Positions 5,479-37,613 of a stretch of DNA of 37,613 nucleotides are shown one piece after another. The first letter of the stretch is position 1; each line of letters starts with the position of its first letter. The stretch covers positions 1-37,613 of the IMG/VR virus record IMGVR_UViG_3300005264_001153. One strand, given 5' to 3'. The position numbers were made by a program, and so were the translations under genes. The notes under the pieces were generated by a model. It did not search any database. It worked only from the letters and a program-made list of their open reading frames with translations, and was not told where the DNA came from. The DNA is from a virus.

Positions 5479-7158
5479 ATGGCATTGCAACCAAGCACAT
5501 TTACAGGACAAGATAGACTCCAACCAGGAGCTAGAGGTCAAAAATTCGAAGCAAACGTACCTGGATATAGAAATTCAGGAGATAACAGAATTAATAGAAC
5601 TAACAACAAGTTAAATACAAATGCACATGATGTTCCTAATATCAAATATGAGTTTGATAGAAGACTTCCAGTATTATTTAAATATGGATTTGCATTTGGC
5701 TACAACCAAATAGTAATTCCTAAAGGAAGACTAGTAGCAGTAGACCCAAACATGGACCTAGTTGATTTTGATATGCATCATGCTCACAGTACTTTAACAT
5801 TAGCTAATGGAGGTGCCCCAGTAAAATTAAGAGCAGTGACTGATAAATACACTGATATCTCAACAGGAGCACAAGGATTAGTAAATGATGCATCTTTAGT
5901 GGCTGCTAATACAGGAGTAGAATGGATGCCTTTAAGAGGATTTGCTAAAGCTTATGCAGGTAAATCTTATAGAGCATTCCATGATAAAGATGGAGATTCA
6001 AATGATATATGTATTGGACCAGAAAAACAATTAACAAATGCAGCTTATCTTGTAGATGAAAATACAGGAAAGATAAAAAAAGGTACAATAATTACTAATG
6101 ATGTAAGACCAGGTAATGTTCCTACAGGAGTATTACAAAGAAACGAATACACTAGAGATGATGACGCATACAATGGGATTATGCCAGGAGCTGTTTTAAC
6201 AGACGCTATGATAGAAATGCCATGGTTCTCTCACAAAGATAAAGCAGAAGGAAATCCTTGGGGTTCAGCATATGGAATATTAAAACCAGGGATGTTAGTT
6301 AAATCAGACGAGAATGGAAGATTCGTACCTTCTCCATTATCTTTTGAGTCAGACTTAGAAACTATGACTATGATGGAAGCAGAGCTTGAAAGACAACAAG
6401 TCGTTGGACAAGTTTATGCTATAGACAACAGCTTAATTCCTGAAGGTTCAGCAAAATGGGCACAATGGGCATTAAGTGAAAGAATGAATTTTAATGAAAT
6501 TAATCCTAGTGTTTATGCTCAAAACAACAGGAATGGCGAAGATGCTATTAACAATTCTCCTTATAAATCTAATGGAGAGTATCCAGGATATCCTTATGAT
6601 AGAAATGCAAACGAACATGACTTGCATATGATATCTCAAAGAGGTTCTTATGACCCAAGAATGCAAGAGCAATATATCTATGATAATGGAATACCGGGCC
6701 TTACTGATGGTAAGAACGTTATCAATGCTATAAAAGCTCCATTTAAAGCTAATACTTTAAGATTGTTTACTTCTGACGAAAAAACAGCAGGACAAAAACA
6801 TGACTTAGATATTTATATAAGAACATTAGATGTTGATGTTAATAGTCTATGTATTGCAACGTCTGAGCCAGTTGGAACATGGGATGAATCAACACAAAAA
6901 TTCACAGGTACTACAAAAGCAGAAGTAGGAGCAACTTTCAATGGATTAACAATTAAATATGTTGATGAATTACAAGGATTGTTAACACTTGAAGTAACAG
7001 ATGAAAATGCGTTAGGAGAAGCTCCAGCTAATGCTACTGAAATACAGAGAGAGTTCCCTATTTGGGTTATTTATAAAAAAAGAGGACAATCAGGAGTTCC
7101 AACATTCTTAGATTGGGACGGAGTAGTAGGAAGCGTTAAAATATTATTAACTAAATAA
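5479..7158 (+). CDS. Abundant head structural protein, unrecognised family (559 aa)
   Basis: Begins at ATG 5479 after AAAGGAGCG. Residues 1-50 are polar and basic (GQDRLQPGARGQKFE...), and the rest is beta-rich with 'FAFGYNQIVIPKGRLVAVDP' near residues 71-90 and many Asn/Gly loops. There are no membrane segments or enzymatic motifs. It lies between scaffold and major capsid genes with a strong ribosome binding site and the same smooth, highly expressed codon pattern as the capsid gene, so an abundant head protein such as a capsid decoration or stabilisation protein is likely. That is inference from context; I cannot name the family. Confidence 0.6.
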   Translation: MALQPSTFTGQDRLQPGARGQKFEANVPGYRNSGDNRINRTNNKLNTNAHDVPNIKYEFDRRLPVLFKYGFAFGYNQIVIPKGRLVAVDPNMDLVDFDMHHAHSTLTLANGGAPVKLRAVTDKYTDISTGAQGLVNDASLVAANTGVEWMPLRGFAKAYAGKSYRAFHDKDGDSNDICIGPEKQLTNAAYLVDENTGKIKKGTIITNDVRPGNVPTGVLQRNEYTRDDDAYNGIMPGAVLTDAMIEMPWFSHKDKAEGNPWGSAYGILKPGMLVKSDENGRFVPSPLSFESDLETMTMMEAELERQQVVGQVYAIDNSLIPEGSAKWAQWALSERMNFNEINPSVYAQNNRNGEDAINNSPYKSNGEYPGYPYDRNANEHDLHMISQRGSYDPRMQEQYIYDNGIPGLTDGKNVINAIKAPFKANTLRLFTSDEKTAGQKHDLDIYIRTLDVDVNSLCIATSEPVGTWDESTQKFTGTTKAEVGATFNGLTIKYVDELQGLLTLEVTDENALGEAPANATEIQREFPIWVIYKKRGQSGVPTFLDWDGVVGSVKILLTK

Positions 7159-19715: not shown

Positions 19716-19758
19716 GGGAGGTGGACCGTTACAAAAATTTTTGTAACGGAAATATATG
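19716..19758 (+). promoter_or_regulatory. Shine-Dalgarno separated from its start codon by a perfect 24-base palindrome
   Basis: GGGAGGTGG (19716-19724), a near-perfect match to the 16S rRNA tail, is about 32 bases from the ATG at 19756, too far for normal initiation. Between them is a gapless palindrome at 19726-19749 (CCGTTACAAAAA and its complement). If it folds, the effective distance from the Shine-Dalgarno to ATG falls to about eight bases. In the ATG frame there is a TAA at 19744-19746, so no upstream start is possible. A 12-codon leader from GTG 19721 would end in TGA overlapping this ATG (ATGA), a second possible route by coupling. Confidence 0.75.
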
Positions 19759-20301
19759 AGACCAATACAAACAAGAGATTTTTCAGAAGCATCTAGAAAT
19801 GCATCAAAAGCAAGAGAAGGAACAGAGCAACGTATGGCAAAAGCAATGAATTATAATATTCAAGAAGATGAAGAAGATATTATACAAGAAGATATTATAC
19901 AAGAAGACGAAGAAGGTATAATCCAAGAAGATTTTATTCCAGAAGCACCAATTACACCAGAAGATTTAATTCCAGAAGATTTAATTACAGAAGAACCTTC
20001 TTATGAAAATAAAATTTCAGAATGGAAAATACTACACGGGAAAATATTTAAAAGCACAATAGATGGACAAGAGTATATATGGATGAAAATAAAAAGATCT
20101 GTCTATGTAGAAATAATGAACCATAAAGATGAAAGCGAAGATGCATTTTATAAAAGACAAGAATTAATAGCTCGCAAGTGCGTTTTATTCCCTGAAAATA
20201 TAGGAACATTAATAGAAACAAATGGAGGGTTAGCAACAACTCTTTCAGATGAAATTATTTTCAAATCTGGCTTTGATATTCAAAGTACAATAGAATTGTA
20301 A
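19756..20301 (+). CDS. Tail assembly chaperone 1 (181 aa)
   Basis: Residues 1-35 are basic and polar. Residues 36-80 are a very acidic Ile/Gln/Pro/Glu/Asp repeat region. Residues of about 85-181 form a domain with 'EWKILHGKIFKSTIDGQEYI', 'KIKRSVYVEIMNH', 'RQELIARKCVLFPENIG' and 'GGLATTLSDEIIFKSGFD'. That layout (short beta part, then 'C-x-(L/F)-(W/F)-P', then 'G...L...I...SGF') is the pattern of tail-assembly chaperones of large Gram-positive phages. They coat the tape-measure protein before tube assembly. The next gene has the same domain. Its unusual ribosome binding site is described separately. Confidence 0.65.
   Translation: MRPIQTRDFSEASRNASKAREGTEQRMAKAMNYNIQEDEEDIIQEDIIQEDEEGIIQEDFIPEAPITPEDLIPEDLITEEPSYENKISEWKILHGKIFKSTIDGQEYIWMKIKRSVYVEIMNHKDESEDAFYKRQELIARKCVLFPENIGTLIETNGGLATTLSDEIIFKSGFDIQSTIEL
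19876..19905 (+). repeat. Two tandem 15-base repeats in the acidic region of chaperone 1
   Basis: GATATTATACAAGAA occurs twice in direct succession and encodes DIIQE-DIIQE; diverged copies follow. The acidic spacer probably grew by slippage. Confidence 0.85.
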
Positions 20302-20314
20302 GAGTGGTGAAAAA

Positions 20315-21064
20315 ATGAGAATAAAAAAAGAAAAAACTAATATAGACAATATAACTGATATAGGTGAAATATATGAAATATTTCAAGAAGAATATCGTAA
20401 TGTGTTTTTTACTAAATTAGAAGATTACTTTTTTATCTATAGATCATTGAATAGAAAAGAACATAAAGCATTGATAGAAAATAAAGATTTTAGTGACATA
20501 GAAAAAGAAGATATTATATGCGAATCTTGCTTACTATGGCCAGAAAAATTCGACTTTGATAATTGTGAAGCAGGTGTTCCTACTCAACTTGCAAAAAAAA
20601 TTATAAAAGATTCTTTTTTAGCAAGTACAGATGATAGGGCATCTGTTATAACTTACTACCGAAACCAAATGTTTAATACTGATTACCAACTTAACTGTAT
20701 TATCAACGAAGCTTTTCCTCAATTTGATATAGAAGAAATTGAGGAATGGGACATAGAAAAAACTTCAAAGTATCTTTCCCGTGCTGAATGGAAGCTTCAA
20801 AATTTAAGAGGTATGAAAATGAATTATGATCCTTATGAAGCTACTCCTCCAAAAGAAAGCAAACCAGAAGTAGTTACAGAAGAATTAACAAGTACTTCTC
20901 AAAGTACTAAAAAGAAAGATAAACTAACGCCAGAAAAACTAGCAGAACTTCAAGCTAAATTCCCCGAAATCAATTGGGCCGATGATTCAGTTTCAAAAGA
21001 AGGAATATCAGCTATGAAAGGAAGTATCGATACAAAGGCAGTTGCATTAAGATCAGGACTGTAA
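20315..21064 (+). CDS. Tail assembly chaperone 2, paralogous to the preceding gene (249 aa)
   Basis: ATG 20315 follows GAGTGGTG. Residues of about 20-110 share the chaperone pattern with the gene before: 'KLEDYFFIYRSLNRKEHKAL', 'EDIICESCLLWPEKFDFDN' and 'AGVPTQLAKKIIKDSFL'. The middle is helical ('INEAFPQFDIEEIEEWD', 'YLSRAEWKLQNLRGM'), and the end is a polar Lys/Pro-rich linker plus a short 'LTPEKLAELQAKFPEINWAD' segment. Many phages make a short and a long chaperone from one gene by -1 frameshifting; here two separate genes with their own ribosome binding sites encode the two forms. It precedes a giant protein that may be its tape-measure client. Confidence 0.65.
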   Translation: MRIKKEKTNIDNITDIGEIYEIFQEEYRNVFFTKLEDYFFIYRSLNRKEHKALIENKDFSDIEKEDIICESCLLWPEKFDFDNCEAGVPTQLAKKIIKDSFLASTDDRASVITYYRNQMFNTDYQLNCIINEAFPQFDIEEIEEWDIEKTSKYLSRAEWKLQNLRGMKMNYDPYEATPPKESKPEVVTEELTSTSQSTKKKDKLTPEKLAELQAKFPEINWADDSVSKEGISAMKGSIDTKAVALRSGL

Positions 21065-21092: not shown

Positions 21093-24000
21093 GTGTCTAA
21101 TGGAAGAGAACAAGATTCTTCTAACTCTATAGGAGCTATAGGAGAGGCTGCTTTAGCTGTTGGGGCTGGAGTAGCCTTATTCTATAGAAGTGGAGGATCA
21201 CAACTACTAGAAAGAGGAGTAAGAAAAGCTGATAGATTCTTAGGAGCAATACAAAACGATGTTGCCGGACGAGCTATGAAAGAATTTGATGCGAAAGAAA
21301 TAAAGAGACTTTATGAAAAGCATGTTACTTCAGCAGATAGTTCTTGGAACAAACTAAGTAGTGAATTTGATGATAAAATCCAACTCTTGACTGGCAAAGA
21401 TGACCTTATAAGTGAAATCGTAAAAAGAACTCGACTCTTACGAAACCCCTCTCAAGTACTTGCTTCTGAATTTAATGCTACATTAAAAAATCAATTAAAA
21501 CAAGGTCTAACTGAAGCTTTCAACATTACTGACGAAAATACTCTAGGAAAACTACATTCTTTTGTTGATGATGGGTTTACAAATTTTTATGAAAAAGTAA
21601 TAAAATATTCAGATGGACAAAACTTACATTTTAATAAGGATTTTCAAGACAAACATTTTAGTGATAATTTATTTACTACTGAGCAACAGACAACAATGAT
21701 GCAAGCTTTAAACGACGTAATGAACATCAAAGCGAATAGAAAAAAACAATTCACTGAAAATAATATGATGTTAACTAATAATATCGCAAATACAATTATT
21801 ACCGATATAGAAGGATTAAAAAAACGTTTTGGAAAAAAGGGAGACAGAACTTTAACAGAACAAGCTTTAGGTTTTTCTAGAGTTACTTTACAAGAATTAG
21901 TGGACAATAAAGACAAAGTAATGAATTCAGAAGTCGTTACTAGAAATTCTGATGGAGACATGGTTATAGAAAACGCTATTGAAATAGCAAAAAAAGCAAT
22001 TGAAAGAAACCCTGATTTGGGAGACGTTTACGTCGGAAGCCATATAAGAAAAGATAATTCTGGTAGAATTATCTCTGTTACAAAAACTAAAGAATATAAA
22101 CAAAAAATAGCAGATAGTTTTGCAAATACCCTTCCTGGAAAGTTATTAAAAACTAGAGACGTATTAAATATAAAAGATGCTCCTTCCTTTCATTTTTCCC
22201 CATCAGGAACTATAGATCCTATATTAGCTGCCCATGAAAGAAAAATAGCAGGGATAAGTAATACAGAATCATCGACTTCTAAAATAAGCAATAGTTATGT
22301 ACGTATTCACGATAAAATGTATAGAATAAACGGTCAAGATTTAGAACATGTAAAGGAATTTGATAATTTGTACTTAGTTTCTGGAAAACATGGTTCACTA
22401 CCTAGATCTATTAAAATGTTAGCGGGAGATGCAAATGTAAAAAACAAAAAAGGTTTTCTTGGATGGGCCGATATAGGAACAACTGAAACACCTACAAAAG
22501 CTGCGGAGTTTCGTTCTATTTTTACAAAAACAAATGCAAATTCAGATTGGGGACGCAACTTAATTAATAATTTGCTTTATAAAGATATTCCAAGAAATCT
22601 TTCGCCTGATGAAGCATTCGATATATTTGAACAACTAAAAAAGACAAATAAATTTTTCAACGAAACAACAAGTCAATTAGATATGTCAACAATAAAACAA
22701 CTTAGAAAAGAAGCCTCTAATAATTCAAAGGAATATTTTAAAGCATTAGAAATGCAAGATAATGAAATGTTTAATTCTATAGCCAAGATGTGGAGCCAAA
22801 ATGATGGCTTTAAAAATGAAGATTTGAATGTACTCATAAAAAGATACATCTCTAATCCTCAAAAAGCTCTTGAATCTATTAGTATAATAAGTGATAAGGG
22901 AGTAGGCATATCAGAAACAAAGAGTCTTAATTTCTCTGATATGATAAGAAAAGAAGTTGCAAAAGAAGCTTTTATTAAAGAAATGGAAGGAACTAACGGA
23001 AAAAATTCCATAGTAAATCTATTTAATCGTGCAGGAATAAAAGGTAGAAAATTAGACGAAGCGAAATATCTTGCTAATTATACTGTTTTTCAAAATCAGA
23101 CATACCTACCTAATACTCCAGATAAAGGAGTTAGACATATCGAAAGTATATTCGATTCAATCGAAGCTGCAAGTAGGTTATTTAAGTCAGATATAGAAAG
23201 CGTATATGACAATACAGACGCCCTTTTCGTTAAACAGTTTCGACAAAATATGATTAAGATGTCTAAAGAGAAAGCACCTTTGTTGCAGAAAGGAATTCAA
23301 GCAGCGGAATTAGATATGATGGACGGATTTACTTACGGCAATCATATTCACTTGCAAAAATCTGTAAATATATTAGAAGCAATAAATAACAAAACAAAAA
23401 GAAAAGCTTTTTTTAAACAACTAACAGCAGGTAGAGATAATATGGCAGATGTTACAACTGCGACTATGGTTCCTTATTTTTCTGTTATGAGATTGATTCA
23501 ACCTCTAGACTCTGTTGGACTTGGTTTTTCAGTAAAAAACACAAGAAATGTTAAAGATGCAACTCTTAATATAATGCTAAAACGAGTCCTTCCTGTTGCA
23601 GGAGGATTAACAGCTTTAAGCTATATTGATTATAGAGCGAAAGCATATACTGGAACAGGATTAAAAGGAGCAACAGCGAATTCACTTGCTAGCTTAGATA
23701 TTGGAGCTAGAAAAGTGGCTAGTGCAACAGGGGTAGGTTATGTATTGGATCATGATAGAGATGTGAATCCTATGATGCAATACTGGTTTGGAAAAGATTA
23801 TCAAAATGGAGAAGAACGTAGACAATATTATGAAAATGGATATGCTCCTGTTCGACAAGGTAGATACTGGTCATTTGGATCAGCTTCAGAATTCAGAGGT
23901 GGAAAAATAAATTACTTTCAACCTAATATGTTAAAACGTGCTCATAGTGATTACTCTGATATAGGAATTTATGGCTCAACAAAAGATAAATGGGCACATT

Positions 24001-27000
24001 CTTGGATACCTACTCCAAGACATCCGTTTTCTACAATAAGAAGACTTGCTGATCCGTATTATTTAGAACGCAAACATTATCAGGATAGACCTTATGCTGT
24101 TACAGGTAAAGCTTTTCAAGAAGGAACTCCATGGGGAGCTGTCTTAAATCCTACTATCGGAAGCATAATAAAACCTGAAAGAAAAATGCATCAAAGAGAA
24201 TTACAAGGAACAACAATAGATGTAAGAGATTTAATAGCAAGACAAAACGAAATTCAAAAAAGTAGAGCAAGTAACAAAAGTGGATTAATACGTATAGATA
24301 ATACAGGTTTTACTCCTACCTCTTTTATTCCTGATCAAGCCCCTAATGATGGTCAAAGAATTGTTAACCTAAGTGCAAGTAATGGTCAAATGAAAGCAAA
24401 ACCTTCAGACCTAAACTATAATGCCCCTACAATGACCAATGAATTGTCAGAACAAATAATAATGAGTAACGCTACAAATGTATCAAGTAATGTTCAACAT
24501 GCTACTTATAATATGCCTATTATAGGAGAAGCTATTGAAAAAACATTATCTTTAAGAATGGCGACAAATAGTGTCCGAAGAGCCAACTCTGCAATTTATG
24601 AAAAAGCTAATTCTCAACCAGAAGGCATGATAACAGAAGATTCTATTTTTAGAACTAGAAATTATGCTGGAAGCAGTGTATTGCAAAATGCAGAAGCAGT
24701 TGCTGATTTACGAACTATAAGATCAGGACATAATTATCTAAGCGATGTTAGTTATTCATCAAAAGAGTTGTCAGGTATTTATGGATTTGCTTTTGAATCG
24801 TTATTTCCAAACAAACAAAAGTACACTATGCAAAATGCAGGAAGAATGAATTCTTATTCTCGACAGTTCTGGGACTCTTCAATTGGAGGACTTGGTGGAG
24901 AATTCATGGAAATTGCTAGACGTTTTTTCCCTCATGAGGACCATTCAATAACAAGAATCAATAATATACGAAACACTATGCCTAGTTGGATGCCAGAAAA
25001 ATTTAGATATGGAGATCCATATGAAGCAATCCCTAAAGGAGAAATGAGACTTCCAGGCGAAGGATATACTGATTTATATAAATTACATCCAGATCAATAC
25101 GGTACATATGGAGCTTTTGATAGAATGAAAATTCTAGGAGATATTGCACCATGGTCAAGAGAGTATAAATACTGGAGAGATATTGCAAACGATTCAATCA
25201 AAGATCCTTATTTGAAGAAACAAATGCAGGGAACTAAAGATAGAGTTATAAAGCAATCAAAACAACATGATTTTTATTCATATAGATTTTTAAATTCAAA
25301 AGTAAAAACAATAGATGCTATTGTAGACAAAGTAACTCAAGGTGGTTCATTTAATATCGTCGGAAGCAATGAAAAGTATAAATTGGCAGGAATATCAATA
25401 AAAGGAGATATCAATCAATACTTACAAAATGGAATGCATGTTAGACTAGAAATCGATAAAAATCAATATTCTGGAAAGAATCAAGATGGAAGCATAAATG
25501 CAAACGTAGAAACATTTGATGGAAAGTTCTCGACAAAACTAAATAAAAAAATATTAGACGATGAAATGGCAGTTCTTAGAAATGATAGCAGTGCGGCAGG
25601 AGTTCATGCTAGATTTTCAGACTTTCAAATATTGAGAGGTAAAATTTATGAAACAATAGCTCATGCTCAAATACCATATGTTCATGATAAATTTTTAAGA
25701 GTTAATAGCCCATTAGAATCATATAAAAACGAACAAGTTTATGGAACTAGTTATTCTAGTTGGGGCCATCCAATACAAAGTTTTGTTTTGCCATCTTTAT
25801 ATCGAGAGTGGGAAACAGGTTATGCAGGTCAAAAGATAGGATTAAGTTCTATGTTACTATCAAATTATTTATCAAAAGCTGGAGCTTCTCGAACAGCAAG
25901 AGCAGGAGCTAATATTTTGGTAGCCGCAACTAATCGTTCAGCAGTAGTTGGAGGAGTAATCGGAGGGCTATTAAAGATTGGTGATAAAAAATGGATTTCA
26001 AAAGGTGCAAAAGCAGGAGCTATCGCTGGCTTTGCAGGATACTCTATCACGAGATTAGAACATCCTGTAGAATCCGCTCTAAATTTTGGTAAATTAGGAG
26101 CGGTAATAGGAAAACAATTGTATCACGCCCCAGGAAAAGGAGCACTCGTAGGAGTAGTAGCTGGCCTTGCATTGTCAGGAACACAGAGTACTTATTTTGA
26201 TAAAAACAAAACATTTAAAAAATGGATACCTAAAGGCACTCGAAAAAAATGGGAAATAGAAGAATATTATGACAGATTAAAATATGTAAAATATACAGGG
26301 CTTTATAATAAAGCAGCTAGATTAGCAGAACGAAAAGAAGGCGTCGACATAAAACGTCTTGTAAATAAATACGAATATAGGCAAAAAAAAGACGAAAAAG
26401 AAAAAAGAAAGTTACTTTATGAAAAAAGCAGGATTGAACACAGTAATATAGAAGAGAGTAAGAAAGTTAATTTGCTTAGCACTATAGACTCGAAACTTCA
26501 ATCGCTAACTATAATTCCACAAACGCTTGAAGCAGGTGAATACACTAGGGCAGCATTAATTTACAAACAAGCAGCAGAAGCTACTGTGTATGGATTACAA
26601 GAAGACGCTTCTTGGGCTCAACTTTTTAGAGCTGTACCTAAAAATGAAAGAGACTACTTAATAGAATTTTCTAAAGAAAAAGACCCAAAAAAGCAAAAAG
26701 AAATATTAGAACTCATGTCTCCATATCAAAGAAAAGTACTACAAACAGCATGGAAACAAAAAACAGATAAACTTGAAAGTAATGCATCTTTTTTTGCTAA
26801 ACATAAAATACCAACTTTGAATTGGGGAGGTTGGAATCCTTCTGTTGATTTGGATAATGTAAAGATAAAAACTATTAAGAATGAAGGTATGATGTTATCT
26901 GACTTTGGTGTATACGAATCTCAAATGAATAAACCTGAAGTTATTTTAGCTCCAGAAATTGATGATTACGATGAAGGGAGTTCAGGATTAAAGCTACAAG

Positions 27001-27164
27001 CGAATCTAACCTCTGCTCTTCAAGGATATGGTCTTTTAGGTGTTAACGTTAGTGTAGAGCCTACAGTGGAGCCAGGCATACATATGATAACAGATATAGT
27101 TAGAACGACTCAGTACAAGTTAAAAGAAGCTTTAAATAGTTCTATAGGAAATATGTTTTTTTAG
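21093..27164 (+). CDS. Giant virion protein, tape-measure candidate (2023 aa)
   Basis: Starts at GTG 21093 after GAGAGGAG. It follows the two tail chaperones, the usual place of the tape-measure protein. Residues 14-32 are hydrophobic (AIGEAALAVGAGVALF). Residues 60-800 are mainly helical and charged, and another hydrophobic segment occurs near 830-850 (VLPVAGGLTALSYI). A Tyr/Trp/Pro/His-rich central part (about 890-1050, with 'HSWIPTPRHPFSTIRRLADP') is unlike ordinary coiled-coil tape measures. Residues of about 1400-1475 resemble a degenerate staphylococcal-nuclease barrel ('SFNIVGSNEKYKLAGISIKG', 'NGMHVRLEIDKNQYSG'). Residues of about 1605-1705 are Gly/Ala-rich hydrophobic repeats that could enter a membrane. 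It could set tail length and be ejected ahead of DNA. The exact family is unknown to me. Confidence 0.6.
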   Translation: MSNGREQDSSNSIGAIGEAALAVGAGVALFYRSGGSQLLERGVRKADRFLGAIQNDVAGRAMKEFDAKEIKRLYEKHVTSADSSWNKLSSEFDDKIQLLTGKDDLISEIVKRTRLLRNPSQVLASEFNATLKNQLKQGLTEAFNITDENTLGKLHSFVDDGFTNFYEKVIKYSDGQNLHFNKDFQDKHFSDNLFTTEQQTTMMQALNDVMNIKANRKKQFTENNMMLTNNIANTIITDIEGLKKRFGKKGDRTLTEQALGFSRVTLQELVDNKDKVMNSEVVTRNSDGDMVIENAIEIAKKAIERNPDLGDVYVGSHIRKDNSGRIISVTKTKEYKQKIADSFANTLPGKLLKTRDVLNIKDAPSFHFSPSGTIDPILAAHERKIAGISNTESSTSKISNSYVRIHDKMYRINGQDLEHVKEFDNLYLVSGKHGSLPRSIKMLAGDANVKNKKGFLGWADIGTTETPTKAAEFRSIFTKTNANSDWGRNLINNLLYKDIPRNLSPDEAFDIFEQLKKTNKFFNETTSQLDMSTIKQLRKEASNNSKEYFKALEMQDNEMFNSIAKMWSQNDGFKNEDLNVLIKRYISNPQKALESISIISDKGVGISETKSLNFSDMIRKEVAKEAFIKEMEGTNGKNSIVNLFNRAGIKGRKLDEAKYLANYTVFQNQTYLPNTPDKGVRHIESIFDSIEAASRLFKSDIESVYDNTDALFVKQFRQNMIKMSKEKAPLLQKGIQAAELDMMDGFTYGNHIHLQKSVNILEAINNKTKRKAFFKQLTAGRDNMADVTTATMVPYFSVMRLIQPLDSVGLGFSVKNTRNVKDATLNIMLKRVLPVAGGLTALSYIDYRAKAYTGTGLKGATANSLASLDIGARKVASATGVGYVLDHDRDVNPMMQYWFGKDYQNGEERRQYYENGYAPVRQGRYWSFGSASEFRGGKINYFQPNMLKRAHSDYSDIGIYGSTKDKWAHSWIPTPRHPFSTIRRLADPYYLERKHYQDRPYAVTGKAFQEGTPWGAVLNPTIGSIIKPERKMHQRELQGTTIDVRDLIARQNEIQKSRASNKSGLIRIDNTGFTPTSFIPDQAPNDGQRIVNLSASNGQMKAKPSDLNYNAPTMTNELSEQIIMSNATNVSSNVQHATYNMPIIGEAIEKTLSLRMATNSVRRANSAIYEKANSQPEGMITEDSIFRTRNYAGSSVLQNAEAVADLRTIRSGHNYLSDVSYSSKELSGIYGFAFESLFPNKQKYTMQNAGRMNSYSRQFWDSSIGGLGGEFMEIARRFFPHEDHSITRINNIRNTMPSWMPEKFRYGDPYEAIPKGEMRLPGEGYTDLYKLHPDQYGTYGAFDRMKILGDIAPWSREYKYWRDIANDSIKDPYLKKQMQGTKDRVIKQSKQHDFYSYRFLNSKVKTIDAIVDKVTQGGSFNIVGSNEKYKLAGISIKGDINQYLQNGMHVRLEIDKNQYSGKNQDGSINANVETFDGKFSTKLNKKILDDEMAVLRNDSSAAGVHARFSDFQILRGKIYETIAHAQIPYVHDKFLRVNSPLESYKNEQVYGTSYSSWGHPIQSFVLPSLYREWETGYAGQKIGLSSMLLSNYLSKAGASRTARAGANILVAATNRSAVVGGVIGGLLKIGDKKWISKGAKAGAIAGFAGYSITRLEHPVESALNFGKLGAVIGKQLYHAPGKGALVGVVAGLALSGTQSTYFDKNKTFKKWIPKGTRKKWEIEEYYDRLKYVKYTGLYNKAARLAERKEGVDIKRLVNKYEYRQKKDEKEKRKLLYEKSRIEHSNIEESKKVNLLSTIDSKLQSLTIIPQTLEAGEYTRAALIYKQAAEATVYGLQEDASWAQLFRAVPKNERDYLIEFSKEKDPKKQKEILELMSPYQRKVLQTAWKQKTDKLESNASFFAKHKIPTLNWGGWNPSVDLDNVKIKTIKNEGMMLSDFGVYESQMNKPEVILAPEIDDYDEGSSGLKLQANLTSALQGYGLLGVNVSVEPTVEPGIHMITDIVRTTQYKLKEALNSSIGNMFF

Positions 27165-28990: not shown

Positions 28991-31021
28991 ATGTCTTTGT
29001 CTTCTCATGATATAAAAAATAGTGTTAAGAATAAAAAGAAAAAAGCAGGTTTTAATAGATCTGCAATTACACAAACATTAAAGAATCTAAATACTTCTAC
29101 ATACATAGAAACAGGTTATTCAGATGCTTTAAATAGTGTTTCTGAAAAAGCATCAAAAAAGGCAAATCTTCCAGGGTTGATTCCTTTATTAGAAGATATT
29201 AATAATCAAGCTTTTTTTCAAACATTGCATTCGTTTAGTGATATATCCCCAACTAGACAGACTGGTGAAGAATTGATGAAACGAGCAATACAAAAATCAG
29301 AAAATATAATAGTTAAAAAAATGCCTCTCAATGCGGATATCATATTTAAAAATTCTAGTTTGAATAATTCTACAAGCACACCTAGAATATTAAAAGCTGC
29401 TGAAAAATTTAAAGACATTCTTGATCAAGGCGGAAAATATTTGTCTTTTGATACAGAGACTTTAGCAGGACAAAATGGAGCAGGAATACAAGTATTAGAT
29501 ACTATAACAGAATACTCTTTCTCTCTTCATAACAGTTCAGGAGAAGTAATAGATGAAATCAGAAATATAGTAGGCTTTAATGAAAAGGAAGTAAACTATT
29601 GGCGAAACGAATTAGAACGAATTGGGCGTACAGGACCTTTGAATAGTAGAGACCAAGTAATTCTCGACAGATTTAGTTTAGTCGGACACAACAAAGTAAG
29701 CATAGAAGATATTGCAGGAGATGGTTCTCAATGGGCTTTTTCTAATATGCCTACTGAGAAAGAAGTTGCTAATACAAAATCTTCTCTTAAAGCTGCATAT
29801 CGAGGAGTAGACTCGACAGCTGAAAAAATAGGACTAGATAGTTCTCTTCATATAGATGTAACTAACGACACCCACTTAGATACATATTCATTAAAACGAT
29901 TTCTATCTGATACTCTCGGGAAAAATCACTTAGGTATCGACAATTCAAATTCAGACAAGGGTCTTAATACCTTAGAACACATAATGAAATCTACTCATCC
30001 CGAACTCTACGAAGGAAGACTTGCCCATATTGCATACGATGATGAACAGATAATGGCACAAGGATTTTTTCATGAAAATATAAAAGGTAGTAACGAAACC
30101 TTATTTGATAGAATGTTTACTCAACTTCAAACAATAATGAAAGACTCATCTGATTCTCCTACTCATAAATATAAAGGATCCAATGAACAGTTATTTTCTG
30201 TTAATTCTACTTATATGATAAATAACTTTAATAAAAAAGGCGGATTAGGATTTGTTTATGATCCAGTTTCTGCTACATACAAAACACTTAATGGATATGA
30301 AGCTGGAGAAAGTGGAATAAAAAAACAAAGCTTTAATCAAGTCGGACCAAAAAAAAGAGGGCTTTATACTCGGCAAGTCGTAGCTTTAGACACAGAAAAG
30401 CTAAAAACATATTTTCAACCAGACTCTCCAGAGTTTAAAACTTATGACAACATGGCTGTTAATGGTATGTATATGATAGTACATACACCTATTAATAGTA
30501 AGAAAGAAAGTGCCGAGACTTTAGGGGCAAAACAGATATTCACATTCCATGAAAGCTTAGACTCCGTAGCCTATATGTTAGGACAAGGTGAAGTTATCGG
30601 AGAATACAATAACAAAGCAAAAGATACAAGCATTAGATACTTAGAAGATTTTTCAGAAATAAAAAGTCACAATGTTAAAGTCGCAAAAGTAGATGCGAGT
30701 ACAGGTTCTGTAACTATGACGAAAGGAACAATTGATGATTTTGCTGAAATGAGTCGTCAAAAAATGTTTAATGATTCTGCTGCTAGATGGGTTAGAAATG
30801 TAGACTATAAAAAATATGGCAAATTAAAATCACAATATGCTGCTATAGACAATACAATAAAAAAAATAACTCCAGCTGAGTATTCCAAGAGAATAGCTCA
30901 AGGTCTACCGTTAATAGATACAACACAAGGAGAGTTGTTTGATGCTTTTAAATTCTATTCTTTTGGTTTAAAAGAGCATACAATTGCAACTGAATCGATT
31001 ATTAATAAGTACTCCAAGTAA
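28991..31021 (+). CDS. Protein with a DEDDh 3'-5' exonuclease domain (676 aa)
   Basis: ATG 28991 follows AAAAAGGGTGTG. Residues 1-140 are basic and polar. Residues of about 148-360 carry a DnaQ/RNase T-like nuclease pattern. Exo I is 'YLSFDTETLAG' (D154, E156). An Exo II-type element is 'LVGHNK' (H233, N234) with a candidate Asp at 240 (IED), followed by 'HLDTYSLKRFL'. Exo III is 'HIAYDD' (H346, D351; H-x-A-x-x-D). In this superfamily four acidic residues bind two metal ions and the His activates water for 3'-5' hydrolysis. The Exo II spacing is two residues longer than usual, so that Asp is less sure. Residues 370-676 are unassigned. The gene leads directly into the RNA-polymerase-like ORFs, suggesting one functional unit. 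Confidence 0.72.
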   Translation: MSLSSHDIKNSVKNKKKKAGFNRSAITQTLKNLNTSTYIETGYSDALNSVSEKASKKANLPGLIPLLEDINNQAFFQTLHSFSDISPTRQTGEELMKRAIQKSENIIVKKMPLNADIIFKNSSLNNSTSTPRILKAAEKFKDILDQGGKYLSFDTETLAGQNGAGIQVLDTITEYSFSLHNSSGEVIDEIRNIVGFNEKEVNYWRNELERIGRTGPLNSRDQVILDRFSLVGHNKVSIEDIAGDGSQWAFSNMPTEKEVANTKSSLKAAYRGVDSTAEKIGLDSSLHIDVTNDTHLDTYSLKRFLSDTLGKNHLGIDNSNSDKGLNTLEHIMKSTHPELYEGRLAHIAYDDEQIMAQGFFHENIKGSNETLFDRMFTQLQTIMKDSSDSPTHKYKGSNEQLFSVNSTYMINNFNKKGGLGFVYDPVSATYKTLNGYEAGESGIKKQSFNQVGPKKRGLYTRQVVALDTEKLKTYFQPDSPEFKTYDNMAVNGMYMIVHTPINSKKESAETLGAKQIFTFHESLDSVAYMLGQGEVIGEYNNKAKDTSIRYLEDFSEIKSHNVKVAKVDASTGSVTMTKGTIDDFAEMSRQKMFNDSAARWVRNVDYKKYGKLKSQYAAIDNTIKKITPAEYSKRIAQGLPLIDTTQGELFDAFKFYSFGLKEHTIATESIINKYSK

Positions 31022-31025
31022 GATA

Positions 31026-31673
31026 ATGAATAATAAAACTATTACAACACTCGAAGAAGATATGCAAGTTGTACAATTTGATATAAAAAATTTATTCACA
31101 AAGACTACTAAACAATCTGAAATTTCTAATGATATATTAACGGTTAACTACAAAAAAGGTTCTTTATTAAATAAACTAATGCAAACAAGATATGGGAATG
31201 AACAAACAGTAAAAAAGAATGGAGTTCATGGATTAGACACTCTTTCAAAGTTCGTACAACATATAGCTAATCAAGATGACTTCTCAGAGATAGCAGATAA
31301 ATTAACTCGTGATTATCTAGGAAAATATGGGATTATTAGATCTGGCGAAAGAGCTGATATTATCGGTGATAAATTACAAAGAACAATAGCCGCTCATATT
31401 GAAAACAAAAGAGGAACCGTTGACTCAACTTTTGGATTAATAGATAAATCTTTATTCTATCAAGATGTCTTATCAGAAAATGAATTATTAGCAAATGCAG
31501 ATACTGAACAAGTAAAAAAAATAGTACTTGATTCTATTGATAAAAATAAGAAAATGGAATATATTGACTTAGGCAAAAATAAGAACTTAAAGTCATCTTC
31601 CATTGATAAAATAGCTGAAAAACTAATAAATATAAATGAAGATGAATGGCAAAAATTTGTTGACAGGTGCTAA
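31026..31673 (+). CDS. 215-aa ORF linking exonuclease and polymerase ORFs
   Basis: I start at ATG 31026, four bases after the exonuclease stop. Unlike nearly every other gene here it has no visible Shine-Dalgarno sequence, so it needs re-initiation, or is really the continuation of the upstream protein. The product is helical and charged ('LDTLSKFVQHIANQDDFSEI', 'DYLGKYGIIRSGERADIIGD') with no motif I recognise. It ends in 'EWQKFVDRC', immediately after an A5 run (31651-31655). Removing one A would continue the sequence smoothly into the polymerase-like ORF. It may therefore be the middle of one long protein. Confidence 0.55.
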   Translation: MNNKTITTLEEDMQVVQFDIKNLFTKTTKQSEISNDILTVNYKKGSLLNKLMQTRYGNEQTVKKNGVHGLDTLSKFVQHIANQDDFSEIADKLTRDYLGKYGIIRSGERADIIGDKLQRTIAAHIENKRGTVDSTFGLIDKSLFYQDVLSENELLANADTEQVKKIVLDSIDKNKKMEYIDLGKNKNLKSSSIDKIAEKLININEDEWQKFVDRC

Positions 31674-31683
31674 GAGTGCAAAC

Positions 31684-34600
31684 ATGGATGTCTTGATAAC
31701 TGATGACTTAACTAATCCTATTAAAATAATAGAAAGAAATACAAAAGATTATACAAATGCCGTATTGCCTATGATTAGTAACACAGGCAATCAAATAGAA
31801 ATTAATATTGCTGGAACAAAATATGTGAGTACTGCTTTTGTAAATACAAAAAAAGTAACTAGAAATAAAAATTTTAATATTAAAGATATTTCTTCTACTG
31901 GGCTTATAGGAAAAGCTCATAGAGAATCTTTTGGATTCGAATCTAATATGAAACTTAGTATTGAAGAACAATCAAAATCTCTCTTAGAACGATTCCATTA
32001 TTCTGGAAAATCAATTGCAGGAAAAGTAGGAGAATATGGTAGGTTAATAGAACGAAATAATCCTGAGATATATTACGCTCAATTAGAATATGATATTAAT
32101 GAACTCATCACTATTCTTCCTGAAATCGAACGATACCAAGGAACTCATACAATGATTGATGATTTACAAAGGCAAGGGAAAATTTCACCTGAATTTTCAA
32201 AACATATAAAAAGCTTAACAGAAATGAAAAGTCCTAGGAAAAGAGTACAGAAAATTTCAAAGCTAATGTCAACAGAACGAAATGCATTTATGACTGATGG
32301 TGTAATACCTATCCTTCATTATATTAAAGAAAAATCAAACGACAAATATGTTCAACACTTTGCAGGAAATGCTGACATATCCGTAAAAGGAAGCAGAAAC
32401 AACAAAGGTAAAGTATCTGTAGGTGCAGTGGATCATGGTATAGGTAACTTATTCAACCTTCAATCAAAGCCGACAGTTAAACAACATTCGAACCGTGTAC
32501 TAATGGACAAAACAAAAGTAACGAAAGAATTAAGTAAATTGGGATTTTTAGGTAATGGAGTAGAATTAGAAGATGCAATAACATCAGAAGAGTATCAAGA
32601 TATAATGACTGATATAACTCAAAATATAGGAGAAACAAAACGAACAGCAACAAGTTCTCTTTCTGTTACACAACTAGTTATAGATGAAAGTAATGCTAAA
32701 ATGCTTTTTTCAAAAGAAGAACAAGCTTTCGATAAAGTTGCAAAAGAATTTGTAATGAAGAATCCTGCATATAACAAATTGTCTCCTAAAGAACGAGAGA
32801 AAGTAATTCTTGACATAAAACAAACTTTAAGAAATCAAGTTAAAGACATCAATTTACATGAACAAGGACTAGTTATGGATACTAGACTATATAGAACAGC
32901 TTTTAGCAATTCTAATTCTAGCTATAATATAGTAAAGTCCAAAGGAACAGATATATTAAAACAAAATGGTGTTAATTTTAATATAGACGAAAACAATCTT
33001 AAAAAAATAGATTTTTCTATAGATACAAAAGGTTTGGATTTTAAATATCAAAATGGGTTCTCTGTCAATAACAGAGAAGAAGTAATGGACTTAATAGGAA
33101 ACACAGGAAGAGTAACTACCTTTAATGCAAAACGAGATGGATTTGTACAAGGACGCTTTTATGATGCTAGAGGAATACAGTTAGATGAAAATGATGTTTC
33201 TAATATTATTAAAAAGAATTTTGGAAATAAAAAAGCTAGTTCAGAAGAAATAAGAAATTTCTTATTTAAAGAATTAGATTATAATATAATTCTTCAAAAT
33301 GCCAACGAACCTTTTGGAAGTAAGATTTTTCAAGGATATGGAGAAAAGGGAACTGTTAATAATCTTATCCCAGTTATTGGCGAACATAGTAATTTAATAA
33401 AAAAACAATTAGAACAACTAGGTCTAGAAAAATATGTAGGAACAAAAGCAACTAATGCGAGTCTAACGGAATTATATAAAAACATCGATGTATTATCATC
33501 GACAAAAGAAGAAGCAACTTCTTTAAAAAACATTATAGCTAATGAACAAAATTTAGCATCTAAAGTTATTTTTGATGAGATTCTAGGAAAAACAAATGCT
33601 AAAGTTATTATCAATCAAGCGACTGAAAAACATAATCATGGCTTTGATGCTCTTTTAAAAGTATTCAATGCTGTGAAAGACAGGCAAGGTTCAATTTTAG
33701 AAGAAGACATAGCAGCAGCTTTTCCTGAAATGAAAAGAGACGTCGATTATAAACTAGATAAAAAAACTGGGCAAGTCATTTTGACTAGTGATATAAATGA
33801 TTTTGGTTTAGATATCGATGCATTAAAAAAACATCTTTCAAATAAAAATATAAAAATCCCTGAGTTTAGATACAACGGAGAAGCTTTAGGTTCTATAATT
33901 AGAACCCCTTTAAATCAAGTTTATGATGATACCGCAGGTGGATATAAAGGTAGGAATAATCAAACACAATCACTAAGAAGTTTAAACAAAAAAGTAAAAG
34001 CTGTAGTTCAAAGGATAAAAGATAATCCCTCTAAAAATCCTAAAGTAGATAAAAAATTAATAAATAAGTATACAAAAAGTGCAAACAAAGAAGCTGCGAA
34101 TATAAAAGCAGGTTTGAGAGCTTCTAAAGACATTGAAAAAGGAATGCCTTATTCTCAACGAACTTACCTTGCCTTAAGTAGAGCAACTTATTCTCAAGGA
34201 ATAATAGATAGATTACAATCTTCTTTACCAACAGAAGATTTCGAAGAATTAGTACATAAAACAGATGTTATAAAAAAAGCGGAATCTGGAGGTTATCAAT
34301 TAGCCGATGGCTTTGAAAAAACATCTATTCTTGAACCTTTTATTGATACAATGAATAAGACTTTAATATATGGGCAAACAGGCGATTTAACCTTACAAGA
34401 TGTAGTCGATGCAGGGACTGAAAAATCTGCTTTTAGTATGATAGAAAAAGGAGCAAGTAACAATCTTGAAAGATACAAATATCTTGCAGATGCATACAAA
34501 GACAAAAATATTTCTGTAAAATACGCAGAAAGTGGATATATGTATGGGTCAGGAATATTAGCAAATGAATTTAATACTACGCCTAATGCTAATATAGAAA

Positions 34601-37101
34601 TGCTTACAGGAAATAAGACCTTTAATTTTAAAGAAGTTCAAATGAAAGATGTTGAATTGGACACTGGTGGAGTAGCAAATACACTTAAGAATTATAAAAA
34701 CAATATATATGAAACTCCTTCAGTTGTTGACTTAGGAGAAGAATTCGGAGATCAACGTTTTATTGCACTCGGAAGAACTGCCCAAGGTATCACTAATGAT
34801 TCATATGTCACTCCAAAGCATATGGATAAGTTAAGAGGAATCCAAGCCACATACAATCAATATACAAGTGAAAATGATCCGACTAAGAAAGAAATTCTCA
34901 AAGTAGACGTTCAAAAGAAACGTGCTAATTTAATAAAGCAACAAACTATTGACTATACAGGCAAAGATTCTGTTTTAACAAAAGCACTTTCGTCTGTAAG
35001 AATGAATCAATCTTTTAGAGGAAAAGCTGATGGTGTATATTTCACTCATTTTAATAATGCAGATAGTTTGTCAAAATCTGAATTAGCAGAAAAATTAACT
35101 CAAACAATGCCCGACTCTATGAGTAAGGCTAAAATAAACGGAAAATCTTTAATAGAACATTATGCAAATGGAGTTCATTATGACGCAGGTTTTATTTCAA
35201 CTTCGGCTTTTGAAAATATGGGATACTTCGATTATGATTTACTAAAAAGACGATTAGGTGATCAATTTAAACCAACAGACCATAAAGCGAATAAAGAAGC
35301 CATGATGCAAATTTTAGAAACGAAAGGAGATGTCATGATGACTTCTAGAACACCAGAAATTCAAGAAGGTTCTATAAAACCTACTAGGGTGTTCTTAAAT
35401 AGAAACTATGCTAACAATCAATCTAGTGTTGTTTCTTATTCTGCAAAAAGTATGAAGTTAGACCATGATGGAGACCAATTCTATGTTTCAACTATAACCA
35501 CTAGAGATGGTTATTCAGTACTAGATAGAGATCTGGGTAATCAAAAAAAGGATCTTAGCGAACTAGGACAATCTACAGATTTTTATATGGCAGATAGAGC
35601 AACAGGCTCCAATGTTTGGTTCGAACAAATGTCTCAAAACGAATTACAAAAAGACGTAGAAAGAGCACGAAAATCTGGACAATGGGACGAAATTGGTAAA
35701 GAATTTCGTGTCGATGGAAAACTATATTCTTCAAGGTTCAAAAATGGATATACTGATAATGAGATATTAGATGCCGGAAAAAGGATAGCTCCGTTTGTGG
35801 ATTCAGCACGAAACAATTTAAAGCCTGACCATAAACCAGAAGAACTTAATGCAGCAGTAGTTAATTTATTAAAAAAAGAAAAAAACTCAAATTTACTAAT
35901 TAAAGATTTTGCAGTAACAAAAGCTTATGAAAACATGCAAGTAGAAGCAACTGCTAAAACATTTGCAGGCTCAATCGGAGAAGTAAGTTCCACTACTTTT
36001 AGAGCAAAACATATCTTCAATGAAACTATGCAAGATAGAGCTTTTAAAGATGGAATGAATTTTGCAACAGCTAGTGATATCTTGCAAGAAGCAATGTATC
36101 ATGTAGAAGAACATGCGGTTATCTCTGCAAAAAAAATAGGCAATTCAGTTCCTGCGGATTCTATTAAAAACTTTTCTCTTCAAATGAACGGATTAATGAA
36201 TGGACAAAATGTACATGAAAACAAAGCAAAACTAAAAACTTGGATGACAGATTTGATTTCTTCTAAATTAGAAGATGGTGGAATTCAAACAATTCTTTCG
36301 AAAAATGAAAATTTTGCAGAAATACTTAGACAAAAAAATATAACAGCACCTAAAGAACAAGCAGAATATATAGTAGAAACATCTTTGGATATAATTGGTC
36401 AATACAGTAAAAATGAAGAAGCTACAAGGTTAGTATCTCAAACTGCAAAAATGTGGTCATCTATAGCAGGAGTTGATGCTAGTGTTGCTAATAATATGAG
36501 GGTAATGGAAAGTTCTGATATTATTAATCAATCATTAATGAAATTATCAGAACAAGGTATGACAAATAACACAATAGTAACAAAAGGTTCAGTTACTAAT
36601 TCCATAGAACTATTAGCTTCTCAGAATTTAAAACAATATGACGGAAGAGAATGGTTACGAAGAGAAGCAAGTTCCGCAGACAAGCTAAAGAAAACTATAG
36701 CAGCAACAAGTGACTTATTTACTAGCATGACAGCAAACACTAGTAATAAAAGTTTAGCTTTTGGAGCTATGGGAATAGCGGCTTCATTTTTAGTAGCTGG
36801 CTTTGTTGGAGGAAATCCAGCTCCTGCTCAAAATCAAGCAGAGTTCGTATCTGATGAGCAATATTATAATGTTCCATCACTACAAGATAATTCAATGTCT
36901 TATAGTAGTTCAGGGCAACAAGGATATGCTATTAATATTAATGCTCAAACAGCTAAAGGAAGAAATAATATAGAAGAAGCACTTCAGCAAGCCATGCAAC
37001 AAAGTTTACCTACAGACGTTAATATATCGATGAATATCAATGAAAACGATAGTAATATAGATAGTAGATACATTGAAAATCTTTTGGCAGGAGCTCTCTA
37101 G
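31684..37101 (+). CDS. Single-chain two-barrel RNA polymerase (beta/beta'-type catalytic motifs)
   Basis: About 1805 residues if started at ATG 31684 (weak AAGAGTG upstream; the frame is open from 31636 or earlier). Two signatures of cellular-type RNA polymerases are present in the right order. 'GSKIFQGYGEKG' has Lys 547 and Lys 555 eight apart, followed by 'TVNNLIPV', like the bacterial beta motif GDK...RHGNKG...P(V/I). 'LDHDGDQF' has D1260, D1262 and D1264 for the catalytic Mg, preceded 38 residues earlier by R1222 in 'SRTPEIQ', like beta' R425 in 'NRAPTLH' and NADFDGDQ. The Asn of NADFDGD is Lys here. Both barrels in one chain recall phage YonO and the crAss-like virion polymerase. A hydrophobic helix (about 1691-1711) and a polar tail follow. 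Probably an ejected or late polymerase. Confidence 0.85.
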   Translation: MDVLITDDLTNPIKIIERNTKDYTNAVLPMISNTGNQIEINIAGTKYVSTAFVNTKKVTRNKNFNIKDISSTGLIGKAHRESFGFESNMKLSIEEQSKSLLERFHYSGKSIAGKVGEYGRLIERNNPEIYYAQLEYDINELITILPEIERYQGTHTMIDDLQRQGKISPEFSKHIKSLTEMKSPRKRVQKISKLMSTERNAFMTDGVIPILHYIKEKSNDKYVQHFAGNADISVKGSRNNKGKVSVGAVDHGIGNLFNLQSKPTVKQHSNRVLMDKTKVTKELSKLGFLGNGVELEDAITSEEYQDIMTDITQNIGETKRTATSSLSVTQLVIDESNAKMLFSKEEQAFDKVAKEFVMKNPAYNKLSPKEREKVILDIKQTLRNQVKDINLHEQGLVMDTRLYRTAFSNSNSSYNIVKSKGTDILKQNGVNFNIDENNLKKIDFSIDTKGLDFKYQNGFSVNNREEVMDLIGNTGRVTTFNAKRDGFVQGRFYDARGIQLDENDVSNIIKKNFGNKKASSEEIRNFLFKELDYNIILQNANEPFGSKIFQGYGEKGTVNNLIPVIGEHSNLIKKQLEQLGLEKYVGTKATNASLTELYKNIDVLSSTKEEATSLKNIIANEQNLASKVIFDEILGKTNAKVIINQATEKHNHGFDALLKVFNAVKDRQGSILEEDIAAAFPEMKRDVDYKLDKKTGQVILTSDINDFGLDIDALKKHLSNKNIKIPEFRYNGEALGSIIRTPLNQVYDDTAGGYKGRNNQTQSLRSLNKKVKAVVQRIKDNPSKNPKVDKKLINKYTKSANKEAANIKAGLRASKDIEKGMPYSQRTYLALSRATYSQGIIDRLQSSLPTEDFEELVHKTDVIKKAESGGYQLADGFEKTSILEPFIDTMNKTLIYGQTGDLTLQDVVDAGTEKSAFSMIEKGASNNLERYKYLADAYKDKNISVKYAESGYMYGSGILANEFNTTPNANIEMLTGNKTFNFKEVQMKDVELDTGGVANTLKNYKNNIYETPSVVDLGEEFGDQRFIALGRTAQGITNDSYVTPKHMDKLRGIQATYNQYTSENDPTKKEILKVDVQKKRANLIKQQTIDYTGKDSVLTKALSSVRMNQSFRGKADGVYFTHFNNADSLSKSELAEKLTQTMPDSMSKAKINGKSLIEHYANGVHYDAGFISTSAFENMGYFDYDLLKRRLGDQFKPTDHKANKEAMMQILETKGDVMMTSRTPEIQEGSIKPTRVFLNRNYANNQSSVVSYSAKSMKLDHDGDQFYVSTITTRDGYSVLDRDLGNQKKDLSELGQSTDFYMADRATGSNVWFEQMSQNELQKDVERARKSGQWDEIGKEFRVDGKLYSSRFKNGYTDNEILDAGKRIAPFVDSARNNLKPDHKPEELNAAVVNLLKKEKNSNLLIKDFAVTKAYENMQVEATAKTFAGSIGEVSSTTFRAKHIFNETMQDRAFKDGMNFATASDILQEAMYHVEEHAVISAKKIGNSVPADSIKNFSLQMNGLMNGQNVHENKAKLKTWMTDLISSKLEDGGIQTILSKNENFAEILRQKNITAPKEQAEYIVETSLDIIGQYSKNEEATRLVSQTAKMWSSIAGVDASVANNMRVMESSDIINQSLMKLSEQGMTNNTIVTKGSVTNSIELLASQNLKQYDGREWLRREASSADKLKKTIAATSDLFTSMTANTSNKSLAFGAMGIAASFLVAGFVGGNPAPAQNQAEFVSDEQYYNVPSLQDNSMSYSSSGQQGYAININAQTAKGRNNIEEALQQAMQQSLPTDVNISMNINENDSNIDSRYIENLLAGAL

Positions 37102-37128: not shown

Positions 37129-37613
37129 TTGGAATTAAAAGATTACAAACATGAAGATATTGTCAAAGAAAAAATAAAAGATAAGTCTTTAGTAGATATA
37201 GAGAATTTTTTGACTCCTAGTATGGGTGATTACTATGGAGAAGAATCAGATTTTAGTATATTAAGACAAGTTGAAAAATCGTTAAATGGAGAAGAAAAAA
37301 ATGGGAAAGCTGCATTGTTTTTTATAGAAAACCCTTATTCAACAAAACTAGGATATCATGAAGATGCAAAAGTTTTCGTTATAAAAGCTGAACCTGTTCT
37401 AACTAGAGAAGCAAAAGCTTTGAATGAATATGACGGTGATACTATACATTTCTATTTAGATAGTATATTAGATGGAGGAGAAGGGTTTGAAATTGGTGGG
37501 CAAAAATATTATAATTTCAGAGATTATGCCAATATCCATAGTAGTGACATAGATGAATATAATGGTGAAAATAGATATGGAATTTTAAGTCTTAGAACCT
37601 TAGGAGTAAATGC
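37129..37613 (+). CDS. Staphylococcal-nuclease-like protein, N-terminal part (3' cut by window)
   Basis: The frame opens at TTG 37129, eight bases after AAAAGGGGG, and is still open at the window end (161 residues visible). Residues 1-95 are charged and unassigned, with 'AALFFIENPYSTKLGYHED' and 'AKVFVIKAEPVLTREA'. At 101-111 'YDGDTIHFYLD' matches the DGDT metal-binding motif of staphylococcal nuclease (catalytic Asp 21 there, D104 here). At 155-161 'LRTLGVN' matches the 'vRLlGid' strand holding the catalytic Arg (R156). The loop between is longer than usual. The catalytic Glu, normally a few residues later, lies beyond the window. A nuclease acting on host or phage nucleic acid, possibly packaged with the preceding proteins, is the likely role. 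Confidence 0.6.
   Translation, partial: MELKDYKHEDIVKEKIKDKSLVDIENFLTPSMGDYYGEESDFSILRQVEKSLNGEEKNGKAALFFIENPYSTKLGYHEDAKVFVIKAEPVLTREAKALNEYDGDTIHFYLDSILDGGEGFEIGGQKYYNFRDYANIHSSDIDEYNGENRYGILSLRTLGVN

Follow-up and report, generated by a model that had tools for sequence, protein, structure and literature searches.

A putative single-chain, two-barrel RNA polymerase in the tape-measure slot of 0305phi8-36-type phages

Among the closest described systems is Thermus phage P23-45, in which the tail tape measure and a virion RNA polymerase (RNAP) are fused as gp96, and some of whose relatives have no RNAP part (PMC10770324). The nvRNAPs of phiKZ and P23-45 are non-virion phage two-barrel RNAPs (PMC10770324). 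For the gene order of the tail region, the reference is phage 0305phi8-36, where gp143 and gp144 form a two-gene tail chaperonin with internal homology between them, and are followed by one further gene, then gp146 and then the gp27-like hub gp147 (PMC2147016). The assignment of gp146 as tape measure was made from tail length, and its alignment to the nearest relative is confined to the final 60 residues (PMC2147016).

Here we describe a protein encoded at the corresponding place in a 37.6 kb virus record (the window, by which we mean the whole stretch of DNA that was analysed). Because of the motifs in its homologues, a match to the homologue HMM in register, a profile match to the phiKZ nvRNAP and Foldseek matches to beta' chains, it is highly probable that this protein is a highly diverged single-chain two-barrel RNAP. 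The initial annotation, which had proposed this from the DNA sequence, was thus right in substance.

Gene order and the tape-measure slot

The window carries, in order, the end of a terminase gene and genes for GroES, portal, protease, capsid, contractile sheath and tubes. Two small ORFs follow, then the gene of the 2023 aa tail protein, a holin-like and an exonuclease-like ORF, one ORF of 229 aa, the polymerase gene and the start of the next gene. The features around the slot are:

19756..20301, + strand: first tail chaperonin-like gene (gp143 equivalent); C-terminal half similar to the N-terminal half of the ORF that follows, E=5.5e-5
20315..21064, + strand: second tail chaperonin-like gene (gp144 equivalent); internal homology with the preceding ORF
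21093..27164, + strand: 2023 aa tail protein before the tape-measure slot (gp145 equivalent); tblastn to MTATph1, KLEB27-3 and ME3
28991..31021, + strand: exonuclease-like protein, 676 aa, with FDTETLAG and AHIAYDD motifs; from gene order and motifs
30984..31673, + strand: 229 aa ORF between exonuclease and polymerase
31636..37101, + strand: predicted single-chain two-barrel RNA polymerase-like protein, 1821 aa; from homologue HMM match and fold search
37129..37613, + strand: beginning of the following gene, truncated where the window stops and tentatively assigned to the hub slot; DGDT...RTLGVN, by eye

This arrangement repeats the 0305phi8-36 order, with the exonuclease-like and polymerase genes following the 2023 aa protein after small insertions, and the polymerase gene lies where 0305phi8-36 has its annotated 'tape measure'. 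Relatives of the portal and of the 2023 aa protein are found in Moorella phage MTATph1, Bacillus phage KLEB27-3 and Acinetobacter phage ME3, and the ME3 record links these phages to 0305phi8-36. The initial annotation had the polymerase gene run from 31684 to 37101. Its end stands; 31684, the next ATG after 31636, is a possible start (1805 aa), and the frame is open from 31636.

The last stretch of the window recalls, by eye and with no BLAST match, the SNase-like start of the hub genes of KLEB27-3, L013 and L014. These hub-slot genes (KLEB27-3 gp035, L004 36336-43316; L013 from 22449; L014 from 22965) begin with a staphylococcal-nuclease-like part (V-x-DGDT...IR...), and a second nuclease may therefore travel beside the polymerase. 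Towards the other end of the window, a phage GroES co-chaperonin gene (1768-2064; phrog_3188, E=5e-23) lies between the terminase and portal genes. A close relative of the window phage (L002/L012, IMGVR_UViG_3300005264_001197; 81-89% identity) is represented by a contig that stops just before the polymerase gene.

The DEDDh exonuclease is fused to the polymerase in the relatives, whereas in the window it is an adjacent gene. From gene order and motifs, we read the ORF at 28991-31021 as the separate-gene equivalent of the relatives' N-terminal DEDDh domain, which matched PolB-exonuclease chains in the PDB at 2.4e-5. To our knowledge, no other RNA polymerase carries a fused DEDDh exonuclease, and a literature search for such fusions found none. 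New in this work are the connection to an exonuclease, the tape-measure slot throughout a jumbo-type lineage and, within the protein, the shared hydrophobic segment and tail at the C-terminus. In MTATph1 (L003 30512-37868), CDS0027 encodes the exonuclease part and CDS0031 the C-terminal tail; between these separate genes lies a transposase gene, with no polymerase core.

Polymerase motifs and their conservation in homologues

On its own, the window protein gave no match in Pfam, PHROGs, PDB sequences or annotated phage records. Its features, numbered from the ATG at 31636, are:

33322..33354, + strand: putative beta-type barrel motif K563-IFQGYGE-K571-G-T573; read directly, fits K-x5-G-x-K-G-[TV]
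35347..35355, + strand: R1238-T-P1240, counterpart of the relatives' R-Y-P and of the E. coli beta' R425 region
35461..35475, + strand: D-H-D-G-D, aa 1276-1280, putative catalytic triad motif of the beta'-type barrel; from profile score
36121..36135, + strand: I-S-A-K-K motif after the triad, aa 1496-1500; fits the family's [LV]-I-S-[SA]-K
36754..36810, + strand: C-terminal hydrophobic segment, aa 1707-1725; the protein's most hydrophobic stretch
36874..37098, + strand: conserved C-terminal tail, aa 1747-1821; hhalign 47.6 versus a shuffle maximum of 26.9, and alignment

The motif readings of the initial annotation were accurate: the two lysines eight residues apart (codons 33322-33324 and 33346-33348) are K563 and K571, the D-x-D-G-D at 35461-35475 translates as D-H-D-G-D, and R-T-P precedes its first Asp by 38 residues. 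The distance from lysine to triad is 713 in the window protein versus 472-584 in the relatives.

The weight of these motifs differs greatly. As the loose pattern K-x7-K-G occurs in 65% of shuffled window proteins, the lysine pair alone is worthless, and 'two lysines eight apart' was dropped as stand-alone evidence. DxDGD occurs anywhere in 2.5% of the shuffles and is by itself not diagnostic, because a second window ORF (nt 5983) also carries a lone copy. The fuller cellular form, K-x5-G-x-K-G-[TV], is found in 0.8% of shuffles at any position and in 0.16% with the proper spacing to the triad. The ordered set, with K-x7-K-G well upstream and R-x-P 25-50 residues before DxDGD, is found in about 1e-4. 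The earlier statement that finding both motifs in order is hard to explain by chance thus holds.

The decisive control on the motifs is their conservation in homologues and, at the level of sequence, it holds. Scans of viral contigs with the whole window protein, its core or the motifs only gave no relatives; these were reached through the profile of the neighbouring tail protein and then through the family's own profiles. Ten distant homologues were obtained (KLEB27-3 gp034 and the proteins of L013, L014, L015, L017, L022, L023, L027, L029 and L030), L015 being an Oceanobacillus profundus contig; no further family member came from scanning 397 genomes in the order to which Oceanobacillus belongs. 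KLEB27-3 gp034 (2434 aa) occupies the same slot and is recorded as a 'structural protein'. The homologues fall into two groups with 17-19% identity between them, and 79 residues are invariant across all ten. It is possible that some relatives are already listed in the supplementary survey tables of PMC10770324.

Lack of motif conservation in homologues had been named beforehand as the observation that would count against the polymerase reading; all ten same-position homologues keep all motifs. Each has a beta'-type R-Y-P...D-x-D-G-D, with a beta-type K-x(4-5)-G-x-[KR]-x-T upstream. In KLEB27-3 numbering, the invariant residues are K1362, G1368 and T1372, with K or R between, in the beta-type motif; R1893-Y-P1895, D1933, D1935, G1936, D1937 and later K2096 in the beta'-type region; and D96, E98, D270, H351 and D356 in the exonuclease.

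How firmly the window protein can be tied to these homologues varies along its length. Outside the C-terminal tail, its comparison with KLEB27-3 or ME3 by single-sequence BLAST and hhalign was not significant. An HMM of the ten homologues, built with the window protein left out, placed it first among the window ORFs at E=8.6e-6, a value from a set of about 60 sequences and tempered by a large composition bias. The alignment was in register, with RTP over RYP and DHDGD over DxDGD, and the reversed window protein gave no match to this HMM. The beta' sub-profile scored 13.9 bits on the window protein, and none of 200 shuffles exceeded 4.7. The K563 site is not above chance with the beta-type sub-profile, and another beta-type register, around K631, is conceivable. 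In the window protein, MAFFT gave inconsistent placements of the beta-type motif, so no claim is built on that alignment. At the other end of the protein, the most hydrophobic stretch lies at the same place in all 11 proteins (115 residues from the C-terminus in the window protein and 116-133 in the ten homologues) and is followed by the conserved tail, the best conserved part of the family. Thus the window protein has the slot, motifs, hydrophobic segment and tail shared by the family defined here, the tape-measure-slot polymerases of 0305phi8-36-type phages. The slot equivalent in Acinetobacter phage ME3 (ME3_36, L005 23173-27984) carries D-H-D-Q-D and K-x9-K-G-T, and has diverged past sequence detection.

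Profile and fold searches point to RNAP beta' chains. Against 177,635 PDB sequences, the best match of the family core profile was the phiKZ nvRNAP, aligned at DFDGD (E=0.0096). The best place for PF00623 (RNA_pol_Rpb1_2) in the genomes of four relatives was this gene, with per-genome E values of 3e-5 to 4e-4 that fall short of the curated cut-off. The AlphaFold models are poor (mean pLDDT 49.8 for L022 and 35.7 for the window protein) and their detail is not to be read. With Foldseek, the best eight PDB matches of the L022 model were RNAP beta'/A subunits (AR9 at E=0.0099, phiKZ at 0.012), and lower among its best matches stood isolated double-psi-barrel domains, which we take NuoG and the p97/NSF N domains to be. 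The best 50 matches of the window model were all RNAP beta' chains (best E=0.019); in these PDB fold searches, no match for either model passed E 0.001. In a viral library, the L022 model matched, at 8e-5, a fragment of 802 residues from an ME3 protein, which is plausibly one half of the 1603 aa ME3_36. Structure prediction and fold search, among the checks initially proposed, therefore delivered specific matches to RNAP beta' chains, albeit from low-confidence models in which the beta barrel was not seen as a fold. A beta'-type barrel in the window protein is well supported by sequence profiles and fold searches. Since the models are poor, the beta-type barrel rests on motifs and not on a visible fold, and is probable from its motif and homologue conservation.

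Other polymerase-like genes came to light in these genomes. L032, L033 and L034 hold second, RdRP/YonO-like polymerase genes (PF05183, G-G-A-D-x-D-G-D) of about 1,160-1,180 codons, elsewhere in the genomes of three relatives (L029, L030 and L028). gp99 of 0305phi8-36 is like this polymerase (PMC2147016; PMC7824862) and lies in the right arm, outside the tail block (PMC2147016). The presence of this second polymerase in three relatives suggests a pair of virion and non-virion enzymes as in P23-45. Furthermore, a degenerate K-x-D-x-D-G-D-Q scan picked out a separate set of giant phage proteins (L006, L008, L010 and L011; about 2,700-4,800 aa in the stored stretches). These gave no family HMM match and were rejected as family members, and they had no match among PDB sequences. 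Three of them (L006, L010 and L011, the last an ORF of 4786 aa with the motif at nt 5112) have K-L-T-T-R-Y-G-S-K-G-V and then A-Q-K-L-D-Y-D-G-D-Q, that is, both putative barrel motifs on one chain, and the set is possibly another single-chain RNAP family.

Proposed role and alternative readings

We consider it likely that the window protein is a two-barrel DNA-dependent RNAP that is carried in the particle, ejected, held at the membrane and used to transcribe the first phage genes. The beta'-type barrel, with its RTP and DHDGD, would hold the catalytic magnesium, and the beta-type barrel would touch the RNA end and the incoming NTP through K563 and K571. The polymerase would be packaged in the particle, its gene lying between the tail chaperonin and tail protein genes and that of the baseplate hub, and would be ejected together with the DNA. 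The C-terminal hydrophobic segment could then keep it at the host membrane while it transcribes the first genes, and the adjacent or fused DEDDh exonuclease may enter with it and process nucleic acid. Taken singly, carriage in the virion is quite likely, given the gene position and the 'structural protein' record of KLEB27-3 gp034, and transcription of early phage genes is reasonably likely. The polymerase relationship is the part with sequence support; we infer the packaging and ejection steps, the choice of template and the targets of the exonuclease.

A two-barrel RNAP could also be made in the infected cell for later transcription, its place among tail genes reflecting operon position. The phiKZ and P23-45 nvRNAPs (PMC10770324) are precedents for such non-virion enzymes. 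We regard this as unlikely here, as the slot is kept in all homologues found, KLEB27-3 gp034 is recorded as structural, the conserved hydrophobic segment fits an ejected or tail protein, and three relatives have a separate RdRP-like polymerase. That the protein is a structural tail or tape-measure protein of polymerase descent, whose barrels are kept for structure and are no longer catalytic, seems decidedly improbable. It would agree with the extreme divergence of the family, the D-H-D-Q-D that replaces DxDGD in ME3_36, and the survival in MTATph1 of exonuclease and tail without the core. However, ME3 still has three Asp residues, and the Asp triad, RYP and beta-type Lys are invariant in ten highly diverged members, which points to catalytic constraint. 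Least probable by far is that the motifs arose by chance in an unrelated tail protein. The absence of any database match for the window protein alone, and the chance expectation for K-x7-K-G by itself, would fit that explanation, which is largely refuted by the homologues and opposed by the HMM and shuffle tests and the specificity of the fold searches.

A virion RNAP is thus the reading we prefer. A broader proposal is that the tape-measure-slot protein of 0305phi8-36-type phages is itself a virion RNAP that brings along a DEDDh exonuclease. Such a machine, ejected and anchored in the membrane, would couple DNA entry, transcription and nucleolytic processing, and its link between tail and polymerase would have arisen independently of P23-45; this we offer tentatively, as somewhat doubtful. 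If it is true, polymerases in this slot occur repeatedly among contractile-tailed phages, those of Bacillaceae included, and are more than an oddity of a single Thermus phage, and the annotation of the 0305phi8-36 tape measure needs re-examination. Since the hosts of the isolated phages KLEB27-3 and ME3 are known, direct tests of virion content, enzymatic activity and early promoters are feasible.

Comparison with known systems

By position, the window protein corresponds to 0305phi8-36 gp146, which lies one gene past a two-gene chaperonin and directly before a gp27-like hub. The last ~60 residues of gp146 are its alignable part, and in the window family, too, conservation is highest in the C-terminal tail; homology to gp146 is proposed by position only. 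The best profile and fold matches of the family's beta' region are the beta' subunits of the phiKZ and AR9 non-virion RNAPs; those enzymes are multisubunit, whereas the window protein has both motif sets on one chain. The single-chain two-barrel architecture and the DxDGD triad are features that it would share with YonO and the RNAi-type RdRPs (PF05183), gp99 included. Membership of that family was rejected: PF05183 did not match the window protein and picks a different gene in three relatives.

With P23-45 (PMC10770324), the likenesses are several. gp96 is, and the window protein would be, a single-chain two-barrel RNAP in a giant tail-region protein; the gene of the window protein occupies the slot of the 0305phi8-36 tape measure. 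P23-45 encodes a separate non-virion two-barrel RNAP, as three relatives here have a second polymerase, and MTATph1, lacking the polymerase core, resembles the P23-45 relatives without the RNAP part. In contrast to gp96, the window lineage is contractile-tailed, has a DEDDh exonuclease fused or adjacent and has a separate 2023 aa tail protein upstream. The crAss-like phi14:2 virion RNAP, gp66, is also a single chain of roughly similar size with both barrels and is presumed to be injected; it belongs to another phage lineage and gene context, with no detectable sequence similarity. A phmmer search of all PDB chains with the window protein gave no match up to E 10, which sets it apart by sequence from both gp96 and the crAss gp66 family (PDB 6VR4). 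The crAss-like logic invoked initially survives as a manner of working, with P23-45 gp96 as an at least equally near precedent. Thus, by the sequence criteria tested, the window protein stands outside both families and outside YonO/RdRP, and it would nevertheless work much as P23-45 gp96 and the crAss-like gp66 do.
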